Below the pieces are notes generated by a model. The model ran no database searches. It was not told where the DNA came from and worked only from the letters and a program-made list of their open reading frames with translations. Positions 11,106-16,408 of a stretch of 41,302 bases of DNA are shown piece after piece. Origin of the DNA: Rhodoglobus sp. (GTDB lineage: Bacteria > Actinomycetota > Actinomycetes > Actinomycetales > Microbacteriaceae); NCBI GenBank assembly GCA_025463515.1, contig JAODAQ010000042.1, positions 1 through 41,302 on the forward strand, in the 5' to 3' direction. The position numbers and the translations under genes are program-made. Each line of letters begins with the position of its first letter. The stretch's first letter is position 1.

Positions 11106-11729
11106 ATGAAGATCGCCGTCATCGGCGCCACCGGCAAGACCGGCACCGCGTTCGTCGAGGCGGCACTCGCCGCCGGGCACGAGATAACCGCCGTCGTGCG
11201 CGACCCGTCGCGCCTCACGGTCGCCGTCGACAGTATCGAGCGGGCGGATGCCACCTCCGCCGCAGAGCTGACGACCGCCATCCGCGGGGCCGACGCCGTC
11301 GCCTGGTGCGTGGGCCCGGGCCGCGACACCCCGATCGACATCATGGAGCGCTCCGCCACCGCCACCATCGAGGCCATGCGCGCGGCCGGGGTGCGCCGGC
11401 TCATCGCCATCAGCGCGACCGGTCCGTTCAACAAGGGCGACAACCCGATCACCCGGTTCATCGCCAAGCCGATCCTGTGGCGCATCCTGGGCGACGTCTG
11501 GCGCGACATGGAGGCGACTGAGCTCGTCATCCGGCCGAGCGGCCTCGACTGGACCATCATGCGCCCGCCCCAGCTCAAGGACGGCCCCGCGAAGGGCCGC
11601 TACGCGAGCCGGCGCGATGCGAACGTCAGGTGGGGGTTCACCATCAGGCGGGCCGACCTCGCGCAGGCGATGGTCGACGCCCTGGCCGACCCCACGAGCA
11701 TCCATGAGGCCGTCGCCGTGGCGAACTAG
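11106..11729 (+). CDS. NAD(P)H-binding (NmrA/atypical SDR) protein
   Basis: A 207-residue Rossmann-fold protein starting MKIAVIGATGKTGTAFVEA (GATGxTG dinucleotide loop), with later RLIAISATGPFN and DWTIMRPPQLKDG segments typical of the NAD(P)H-binding atypical SDR group. The usual SDR Tyr-x3-Lys catalytic pair is not evident, so it may be a redox sensor or an enzyme on an unknown substrate. It has a GGAG ribosome site. The adjacent TetR protein and operator repeats suggest induction by a small molecule. It ends tail to tail with tadA at CTAG. Confidence 0.87.
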   Translation: MKIAVIGATGKTGTAFVEAALAAGHEITAVVRDPSRLTVAVDSIERADATSAAELTTAIRGADAVAWCVGPGRDTPIDIMERSATATIEAMRAAGVRRLIAISATGPFNKGDNPITRFIAKPILWRILGDVWRDMEATELVIRPSGLDWTIMRPPQLKDGPAKGRYASRRDANVRWGFTIRRADLAQAMVDALADPTSIHEAVAVAN

Positions 11730-12178
11730 CGCTTGCTCTGGAAGAACTCGAGCAGCAGCTGCGCGCAGGCCTCGGCCTCGACCCCGGCGATGACCTCGAC
11801 CGTATGGTTGAGCCGCCGATCGCGGAGCACGTCGTAGACGCTGCCCACGGCGCCGGCCTTCTCATCCCAGGCGCCGAAGACCACGCGGGGGATGCGCGAG
11901 TTGAGGATCGCGCCGGCGCACATGACGCACGGCTCGAGCGTGACGACGAGGGTGGCGCCGGTGAGGTGCCAGTCCCCCAGCGCGGCAGCGGCCTCGCGGA
12001 TCGCGATGAGCTCGGCGTGGGCCGTCGGATCCTGGTGGAGCTCGCGCTCGTTGCGCCCTACGCCGATGCGGTTGCCCGCGGCATCCATGATGATCGCGCC
12101 GACCGGCACGTCGCCCGAGCCGAGCGCGCTGCGGGCCTCGGCGAGCGCCTCGCCCATCCACTCCGCATACCGGTTCAC
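11726..12178 (-). CDS. tadA: tRNA-specific adenosine-34 deaminase
   Basis: A 150-residue zinc deaminase that converts A34 to inosine in tRNA-Arg(ACG). The active site has HAE (TAHAELIAI, Zn ligand and proton shuttle) and PCVMC (two Zn Cys) near residues 53-86. The C-terminus LLEFFQSKR is typical. The GTG start gives YAEWMGEALAEAR, aligned with the family N-terminus. However, the minus-strand -10 TACTGT overlaps this GTG, so a start at the ATG at 12157 (GGAG just upstream) is possible if that promoter is used. The substrate tRNA-Arg(ACG) is encoded at 35084-35156. Confidence 0.93.
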   Translation of the reverse strand: MNRYAEWMGEALAEARSALGSGDVPVGAIIMDAAGNRIGVGRNERELHQDPTAHAELIAIREAAAALGDWHLTGATLVVTLEPCVMCAGAILNSRIPRVVFGAWDEKAGAVGSVYDVLRDRRLNHTVEVIAGVEAEACAQLLLEFFQSKR

Positions 12179-12186
12179 AGTAGATT
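12177..12186. promoter_or_regulatory. Shared divergent -10 10-mer, tadA / upp
   Basis: ACAGTAGATT reads TAGATT on the plus strand, 6 nt before the upp ATG, and TACTGT on the minus strand toward tadA. An alternative tadA -10 is TAGGCT (minus strand, 12188-12193). Confidence 0.45.
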
Positions 12187-12192
12187 GAGCCT

Positions 12193-12825
12193 ATGCGAGT
12201 ACACGTTGCCGACCACCCGCTCATCACCCACAAGCTCACGGTGCTGCGCGACAAGAACACCCCGTCGCCGACGTTCCGCGCCCTCGCCGAGGAGCTCATG
12301 ACGCTCCTCGCCTACGAGGCGACCCGCAACGTGCGCACCGAGGTCGTGGAGATCGAGACTCCCGTCACGAAGACCACCGGGCTCGCCATCAGCATGCCCC
12401 GCCCGCTCGTCGTCCCGATCCTGCGGGCCGGCCTCGGGATGCTCGAGGGCATGGTCAAGCTCATCCCCACGGCCGAGGTCGGCTTCCTCGGGATGATGCG
12501 CGACGAGGTGACCCTGCAGCCCACCACGTACGCCCAGCGGCTGCCCGACGACCTGTCCGACCGCCAGTGCTTCATCCTCGACCCGATGCTCGCGACCGGT
12601 GGATCGCTCATCGGCGCCATCGAGTTCCTCTTCGAGAGGGGTGCCAGGGATGTCACGGCAGTCTGCCTCATCGGATCGCCCGAGGGCCTCGCCGCCGTCG
12701 AGAAGGCAACCGAGGGCCGCGAAGTGACCGTCGTACTGGGAGCGCTCGACGAGAAGCTCAACGAGGTCGGGTACATCGTCCCCGGGCTCGGCGACGCGGG
12801 CGACCGGCTCTACGGCACGGTGTAG
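12193..12825 (+). CDS. upp: Uracil phosphoribosyltransferase
   Basis: A 210-residue cytosolic enzyme that makes UMP from uracil and PRPP (pyrimidine salvage). The PRPP-binding signature is [17 protein letters not shown] near residue 130, and the C-terminal uracil-binding [12 protein letters not shown] is intact. The N-terminal half includes [14 protein letters not shown]. The ATG is 6 nt after TAGATT and so probably leaderless. Uracil could come from psuG (19306-20223) acting on pseudouridine monophosphate. Confidence 0.96.
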
Positions 12826-12830
12826 CGCCA

Positions 12831-12860
12831 CTTGCATTTCTTGCGCGAATGCAAGATAGT
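12831..12860 (+). promoter_or_regulatory. Promoter with dyad operator upstream of the leaderless mini-ORF
   Basis: TTGCAT (12832-12837), a 17-bp spacer, then GATAGT (12855-12860), with a start point expected at the ATG 7 nt later. A perfect dyad CTTGCATT (12831-12838) / AATGCAAG (12848-12855) covers the -35 and spacer. GCGAATGCA (12845-12853) has a second complement, TGCATTCGC, at 12879-12887, inside the mini-ORF, so a regulator could contact both. Confidence 0.55.
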
Positions 12861-12867
12861 TGCACGC

Positions 12868-12945
12868 ATGACTGTTCGTGCATTCGCCCTAACCTCCCTT
12901 GAGGTTCGCGAGAGCATGGTCATGTGTTGTCGAATGTGTGCCTAA
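12868..12945 (+). CDS. Putative leaderless Cys/Met-rich leader peptide (uORF, 25 aa)
   Basis: The ORF reads MTVRAFALTSLEVRE followed by SMVMCCRMCA and TAA. It starts at the predicted transcription start, 7 nt after the GATAGT -10. Of its last ten residues three are Cys and three are Met. All three Cys codons are TGT, a codon expected to be rare in such GC-rich DNA. A stem CGAAT(G)TGTG / CACAATTCG (12931-12959) begins just after the TGT TGT pair; a ribosome stalled there would cover its 5' arm. Known relatives of the idea are the poly-Cys leaderless uORFs of mycobacteria. It could instead be a chance ORF; no homology search was possible. Confidence 0.5.
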   Translation: MTVRAFALTSLEVRESMVMCCRMCA

Positions 12946-13107
12946 CAGCCCACAATTCGTCGGGTTCCGCCTCCCTTAGAGGGCGTAACTCCCGGGCCCC
13001 AGTCCTCATAACGGCTGGCTACCGCTTCGCATGACCGCAGTACCCGAAGGATCACAACCTCATCATCAGAGGCCCTTCACCCCACAAAACTAAGGATTCC
13101 CAGGACC
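12946..13107 (+). promoter_or_regulatory. Structured 5' leader of the winged-helix gene
   Basis: 162 nt with no ORF I can support. Besides the hairpin ending at 12959, there is CCCT-TAG-AGGG (12973-12983), enclosed by CGGG (12961-12964) and CCCG (12991-12994). I see no clear U-tract terminator and no ribosome site stronger than GGATTCCCAGG near the ATG. It does not match a riboswitch class I recognise. Confidence 0.35.
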
Positions 13108-16203: not shown

Positions 16204-16247
16204 TAACGGTTTGGTAACTAGACAGCGTTACCGTTCCGTTATACATT
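16204..16247 (+). promoter_or_regulatory. Promoter inside a 38-bp dyad, upstream of a putative small RNA
   Basis: TAGACA (16219-16224), exactly 17 bp, then TACATT (16242-16247). The dyad is TAACGG-TTT-GGTAAC (16204-16218), 8 bp, GTTACC-GTT-CCGTTA (16227-16241), covering -35 to just before -10. This is strong evidence for a regulated promoter; the regulator is unknown. Confidence 0.55.
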
Positions 16248-16253
16248 CATAGA

Positions 16254-16361
16254 GCAGAAGTTGTTTGCTGTGGCAGCTGAAGCGGAATGTGATTGCAGGA
16301 CACTCTTGGTGCAAGGGAGAGGGTCGGTTCCTAGCCTCTGGAACCGACCCTCAATCCTTTT
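16254..16361 (+). ncRNA. Putative regulatory small RNA of about 105 nt
   Basis: The RNA would start about 7 nt after the -10 and end at a strong intrinsic terminator. The interval has no convincing ORF. It includes a small hairpin CTTG-GTG-CAAG (16305-16315). The terminator stem is 13 bp. The 12-mer AACCGACCCTCA of its 3' arm is repeated at 16174-16185, just before the promoter dyad. It is not 4.5S, 6S or tmRNA by any feature I can see. Coordinates of the 5' end are inferred from promoter spacing. Confidence 0.5.
16319..16361 (+). terminator. Strong intrinsic terminator of the small RNA
   Basis: A 13-bp perfect stem GAGGGTCGGTTCC (16319-16331) / GGAACCGACCCTC (16340-16352) with an 8-nt loop, then AATCCTTTT. 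Confidence 0.8.
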
Positions 16362-16408
16362 AAGCACCGGTCCTTCACCGCCGCCCTCTACGTTCCCACG
16401 ACAGCGTC

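Follow-up and report, generated by a model that had tools for sequence, protein, structure and literature searches.

Attenuators of the leaderless polycysteine type are defined by the cysteine or sulfur operon that lies downstream of the short upstream ORF. Canestrari and colleagues, in 2020, reportedly dealt with leaderless polycysteine short ORFs of mycobacteria and with the operonic genes. According to the passages devoted to them, the leaderless poly-Cys leaders of mycobacteria respond to cysteine (PMC9031893, PMC9094748). Candidate cys leader peptides of Actinobacteria have runs of Cys codons near the stop and no obvious terminator; the section that treats them places them before cys operons or cbs and reports no conserved terminator hairpins (PMC1262725). 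The section on the LEU element of actinobacterial leuA, in turn, describes the codons of a leader ORF as pairing partners of the Shine-Dalgarno box downstream (PMC1262725).

The leader described here lies in a stretch of 41,302 nt (the window) from Rhodoglobus sp., a member of the Microbacteriaceae (assembly GCA_025463515.1, contig JAODAQ010000042.1, forward strand). It shares with the mycobacterial ORFs, as these are portrayed in the passages cited, a leaderless start (predicted in our case), a short length, contiguous Cys codons in most leaders and a position upstream of a gene. The target differs from that portrayal, given that theirs is a cysteine operon and here it is an orphan regulator, and so does the invariant element, which here is CGA-AUG and not Cys, with a long-range arm proposed. 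The Cys codon runs near the stop and the want of an obvious terminator are also found in the cys leader peptides of Actinobacteria, and the proposed pairing of leader codons with a downstream site recalls the LEU element, which differs in relying on its Leu codons, in preceding another gene and in forming a pseudoknot (PMC1262725). In contrast to a classical transcription attenuator, the regulator gene is not preceded by an intrinsic terminator, according to a consensus scan of the window. Relative to the leaderless Cys-leader attenuators, the predicted novelty would lie in the target, an orphan regulator, and in the proposed helix arm, which is conserved more strongly than the codons that would be sensed. 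No description of this leader was found in a search of the open-access literature, outside of which most subscription papers fall.

The leader ORF, its promoter and its neighbours

The genes of the locus are, in order, a tadA-like gene on the minus strand (label assigned by eye), upp (PF14681), a 25-codon ORF and a winged-helix gene of 233 residues (Table 1). The elements from which the initial annotation was built (both hexamers, the ATG, the 25 codons with their three TGT codons, a stem and a dyad) are all in place in the sequence.

Table 1. Features of the leader and of the region before the regulator, in window coordinates.
Feature	Position	Strand	Remarks
-35 hexamer TTGCAT	12832..12837	+	Relatives often have TTGACA
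Inverted repeat over the promoter, TTGCATT (12832-12838) / AATGCAA (12848-12854)	12832..12854	+	Whole only in near relatives
-10 hexamer GATAGT	12855..12860	+	17 bp after the -35; 7 nt to the ATG
Upstream ORF MTVRAFALTSLEVRESMVMCCRMCA and stop, 25 codons, predicted leaderless	12868..12945	+	ATG 12868, stop 12943-12945
TGT-TGT-CGA-ATG core (Cys-Cys-Arg-Met)	12925..12936	+	CGA-ATG invariant; proposed 5' arm of a long-range helix
Hairpin CAGTC-CTCATAAC-GGCTG	13000..13017	+	Both sides changed in three pairs among relatives
Weak, interrupted complement of the core, CCGCTTCGCATGACC	13022..13036	+	No better than shuffles in the window (z 0.13)
Hairpin GAAGG..CCTC..GAGG..CCTTC before the ribosome site	13046..13078	+	One compensatory pair (UA 18, CG 5)
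Shine-Dalgarno-like AAGGA of the regulator gene	13092..13096	+
Orphan winged-helix regulator, 233 aa	13108..13809	+	PF00486 only

The leader transcript is predicted to begin on the start codon of the leader. The in silico promoter spacing fits the start point that had been proposed on ATG 12868, although a sigma-70 scan reported no promoter at the leader at the tool's threshold. A crude search located TTGNN at 36 or 37 nt 5' of the start codon in 66 of the 119 non-identical leaders, with the nearest TTGNN at another distance in 48 and none in 5; a T stands at -36 in 95% of the first-family leaders. The dyad that had been noted over the -35 is present in the window, but beyond it the repeat is whole in L002 and L005 and partial in L006 and L007. 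Promoters of several leaders of a second family (L149, L153, L154, L156 and L157) carry GTTAC boxes repeated about 20 nt apart (TGTTACTTGC...TTGTTACG), the first of which is still visible by eye in leaderless loci, for example L158, L190 and L193. These boxes suggest an OmpR-type operator and, perhaps, autoregulation.

That the winged-helix protein has no receiver domain, as first proposed, agrees with the profile search, which gives only PF00486 at an E value of 0.001 or better; this is the DNA-binding domain that the protein has in common with OmpR/PhoB-type response regulators. Its matches among solved structures are response regulators, over the C-terminal part only, and its structure model (mean pLDDT 74) has high confidence over the DNA-binding part and low confidence towards the N terminus. 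The gene is present in 149/149 genomes of the second family that were searched, in 60/60 genomes of a third family (f7) and in 13/197 genomes of a class-wide draw (E < 1e-30). The window genome (G000, approximately 95% complete) has no member of the PAPS reductase family (PF01507), so that no role in sulfate assimilation is apparent.

Two further observations concern the neighbourhood. Of the 80 loci, 67 have a tadA-like gene and 67 have upp (window 11726-12825); where no upp was found in the flank (13 loci), the leader is kept in all but one. Farther along the window, at 16225-16365, a small-RNA-like unit (by eye) precedes a MarR-like gene (label by eye); it consists of a promoter-like TATACAT, approximately 100 nt, and then a GC-rich stem with a T run. 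The unit has no Rfam match, and similar DNA occurs in 46/60 family genomes, at one place each; pairing in trans between the element at 16252-16365 and the leader was considered and rejected, its energy being no better than that of shuffles (-74.9 vs -73.3, sd 5.4).

Distribution of the leader and conservation of its codons

The first family was sampled by scanning one genome per species, which yielded 80 loci titled as Microbacteriaceae genera or as unplaced actinobacteria. The mini-ORF noted at the outset is conserved beyond chance: a leader lies 5' of the winged-helix gene in 78 of these 80 named loci, mostly Microbacteriaceae (59 with the strict pattern and 19 with variant leaders; the locus L058 is truncated where its contig ends, and L077 is diverged). 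The strict pattern was found genome-wide in 251/398 family genomes, a count that takes in chance matches and misses variants. Second copies of the leader elsewhere were sought among 20 pattern places fetched from genomes and discarded, given that nine proved to be leaders, all of them in front of the winged-helix gene, and the other 11 had no leader ORF. In the window and in these nine pattern-derived places (9/9) the next gene is the winged-helix regulator and not a cysteine or sulfur operon, whereas the remaining leaders were sought upstream of that gene and are no test of next-gene identity.

A second family of the same order, probably Micrococcaceae, has the leader in 62 of 77 non-identical loci; 63 were scored, and L193 (CGG, upstream of the promoter) was set aside as a chance match. 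Its leaders measure 30 codons in 32/53 and start with GTG in 44/53. In three leaders (L196, L205, L238) the frame extends 6-8 codons past the usual stop with CGA-ATG kept, and in L146 and L235, which come from the same genome, CGA-ATG does not share the frame of the usual GTG start, possibly a broken or re-started leader. With the CGN-ATG pattern, no leader was seen in 20 third-family loci; in two of these (L227, L228) the match is limited to the protein's second half, so that the region upstream was perhaps not reached.

The set used for most comparisons was obtained from 145 loci by removing 12 without a pattern match and 14 identical duplicates, which left 119 non-identical leaders (112 of the first family and 7 of the second). 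The 12 loci comprise three with variant leaders (L145, L146, L151), one at a contig end (L058), one with a diverged tail (L077), six with no leader (L150, L152, L155, L158, L159, L160) and L133, where there is no leader at the locus and the pattern occurs near the end of another contig of the same genome. Thinning was the sole correction for shared descent, and 82/112 first-family and 26/48 second-family loci were kept for the strict-word test. The search pattern of the first family fixed the Cys codon, CGN and ATG, so that the third base of CGN is the sole unbiased result there; that of the second family fixed CGN and ATG and left Cys free.

The Arg codon is CGA in 112/112 first-family and 62/62 second-family leaders (L193 set aside), and in the non-identical set CGA (119/119) is followed by ATG in 119/119, against a background in which CGA accounts for 9% of 5,906 Arg codons (244 ORFs). 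Cys codons are likewise unusual in composition, with 271 TGT vs 64 TGC in the 119 leaders and a background of 16% TGT. Although strongly favoured, the Cys codons are not invariant. The first and the fifth Cys positions are each Cys in 106/119 leaders; a rule by which the two are never lost together was considered and dropped, since 13 and 13 losses with 0 doubles in 119, where about 1.4 are expected, provide no evidence for it. In the second family, the four codons before Arg hold at least two Cys in 55/62 leaders, one in 6/62 and none in 1/62 (L188), and the three residues before Arg read CCC in 16 and RCC in 11 of 53 leaders, with CRS, SGF, CCY, SCL, CCF and others in single leaders. Contiguous Cys codons near the stop are thus a feature of the window and of most leaders, and are absent from L188, L184, L151 and others. 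By eye, L077 keeps CGA without Cys and Met, and 10 of the 12 second-family leaders that lack the last Cys before CGA still have a T before it (L151 and L240 have A), as would be expected if that base were required by a helix.

Complementarity between the leader core and the region before the regulator

Complementarity to the core is found upstream of the regulator in both families, not in the window. It is most regular in the second family, where CGAATGC of the leader has its complement in GCATTCG, mostly located 41-51 nt before the regulator AUG. Strict Watson-Crick matches of at least 7 nt occur in 23 of the 26 thinned loci vs 1.9 expected from dinucleotide-shuffled targets. GCATTCG is present in 48/62 loci with a leader vs 1/14 scored without one (p 2e-6, uncorrected for shared descent); the exception is L146, with its motif out of frame, and the exact word is absent from 14/62 leader loci. 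A C directly following ATG is answered by a G in front of CATTCG in 37/37, and a T by A or G in 7/18. Compensation is exemplified by CGAATGT leaders with the partner ACATTCGA (L171, L176, L181), L175 and L231 having at that base a G, which gives a wobble pair, and by TGCTGTCGA leaders with the partner TCGACAGCA (L048, L119, L131).

In Microbacteriaceae a complement of the core appears to be enriched, with a position that drifts. Strict complements of at least 6 nt occur in 43 of 82 thinned first-family loci vs 21.8 expected (sd 3.7), of at least 7 nt in 17 vs 5.9 and of at least 8 nt in 9 vs 1.8, while the reversed motif, used as a control, gave 7, 3 and 0 loci at these lengths and the first 60 nt past the stop gave 2/65 vs 4.7 expected. 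Of the 43 partner sites, 32 lie at -93 to -47, two at -29 and -22, and nine at -10 to -7, which is the ribosome site. A scan of five six-base words showed a modest excess over the 119 leaders (TCGAAT 32 vs 14.2 expected; CGAATG 37 vs 20.3 expected). A partner of CGAATG at a fixed position was looked for with six-base words and base-pair probabilities and abandoned, as no consistent position emerged; the second family and the strict-word test on thinned loci gave a clearer picture. When G-U pairs and gaps are allowed, duplex energies lie hardly under those of shuffles in the first family (mean z of -0.21, n = 112), the mean z of the second being -1.53 (n = 48). Covariation at the wobble base is faint for the second Cys codon (Fisher p 0.05; 0.09 after thinning), and the first Cys codon shows none (p 0.49). 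By strict Watson-Crick words, no complement of the core of 6 nt or longer exists in the window.

The computed access to the ribosome site, with a ribosome placed on the Cys codons, does not change uniformly in either family (first: 0.488 to 0.511, p 0.35, 31 up and 26 down; second: p 0.96, 8 up and 8 down). It rises in five loci whose arm lies at the ribosome site (L025, L031, L033, L065, L073) and also in others (for example L008, L010, L136), and falls in some (L027, L028, L035).

Local structure was evaluated on 24 aligned sequences. The hairpins shared by the relatives have 5 of 16 consensus pairs with both sides changed, though covariation contributes little, -0.85 of -14.47 kcal/mol. A search of the window against Rfam 15 gave no family above the gathering threshold. 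A hairpin formed with a methionine run (GMMMP) was also tried and rejected: it is possible in 82 leaders with ATGATG, its stem varies from 0 to 7 pairs, and the run is absent from the window.

Possible modes of action of the leader

The reading that we favour, with some reservation, is that a ribosome gates the leader and that the last leader codons supply one arm of a long-range RNA helix, the other arm of which lies before the regulator. The transcript would start on the leader ATG and a ribosome would translate the 25-codon ORF at once; the Cys-Cys-Arg(CGA)-Met codons would double as the 5' arm, with a partner in the last 95 nt before the regulator AUG. A ribosome sitting on the last codons would mask this arm and prevent the helix, and once it has gone the helix could form and change the fate of the downstream gene, in one direction or the other, through translation start or Rho-dependent termination. 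The likeliest cause of a pause would be a shortage of Cys-tRNA, because Cys codons directly precede the arm in most leaders, and the slow codon CGA may lengthen it. With the leaderless poly-Cys leaders of mycobacteria as a parallel, cysteine is thus a likely, if unproven, signal.

With regard to the output, Rho-dependent termination in the C-rich stretch before the regulator, protected or exposed by the leader ribosome, is possible, if on the doubtful side. Across 112 first-family loci C averages 40% and G 23.5% of this stretch from stop to ATG (the window has 38% and 21%), no intrinsic terminator emerged from the scan, and Rho is suggested for mycobacterial cys leaders in the section that treats them (PMC1262725). 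However, C-richness alone is weak evidence, and the conserved hairpins point to a stretch that is structured and not bare.

Other proposals concern what is sensed. CGA is a slow codon, read by an inosine tRNA, and could itself be the sensor, in which case the leader would report the supply of tRNA-Arg(ICG) or decoding speed. This seems unlikely to us, in spite of the unbroken use of CGA in both families, of its persistence in L077 after the loss of Cys and Met, and of the tadA-like gene in 67/80 loci, for the position of CGA at the centre of the proposed helix accounts for its constancy with no need of slow decoding, and the neighbourhood is not required, as 12 of the 13 loci without upp in the flank keep the leader. 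In the portion of a Salmonella his-leader study that bears on this matter, CGU and CGC were apparently translated faster than CGA (PMC4046918), in keeping with such a sensor. Less probable still is a general sensor of translation stress, for example of antibiotics, and not of an amino acid: one such sensor of ribosome-targeting antibiotics is reported among bacterial leader ORFs (PMC12121999), but the strong and recurring Cys enrichment would be left unexplained.

An arrest peptide, whose nascent chain stalls the ribosome upon ligand binding, would account for the constant tail (pN/pS 0.34), in which Arg stands four codons from the stop, counting itself, in 59/62 second-family leaders. It is nevertheless very improbable, given that codons 2-13 show no constraint at the amino acid level (pN/pS 0.87 in 108 leaders, similar to the 0.81 and 0.86 of shifted frames), that the constant residues there are also constant in codon (Glu12 GAG 90/90, Thr9 ACC 85/85), that a fixed CGA codon answers no need of the peptide, and that three leaders are 6-8 codons longer. 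Finally, the cysteine attenuator originally drawn, in which a stall at Cys or Met codons blocks the stem CGAATGTGTG / CACAATTCG, can hardly be maintained, even though Cys codons precede that stem in the window and cysteine-responsive leaders are reported in the mycobacterial passages (PMC9031893, PMC9094748), since its 3' arm occurs only in the window and in none of the other 23 aligned relatives (by eye), Cys is dispensable in some genera and the scan found no terminator.

Returning to the ribosome-gated helix, a wider version of it can be envisaged, speculative and rather unlikely, in which the CGA-AUG arm is fixed and the sensed codons drift: Cys would be ancestral and replaced in some genera, and the orphan GlnR/PhoB-like regulator would act as a master switch for sulfur amino acids, or for a re-tuned signal, in two families. 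What the data establish at the level of sequence is the ORF with its deep conservation, the promoter spacing, the constancy of CGA-AUG and the complementarity in both families, though not in the window; the regulator that follows belongs to the core genes of the second family. If the proposed mechanism is true, it would provide a handle on the signal of this regulator and represent attenuation that controls a regulator rather than a biosynthetic operon.
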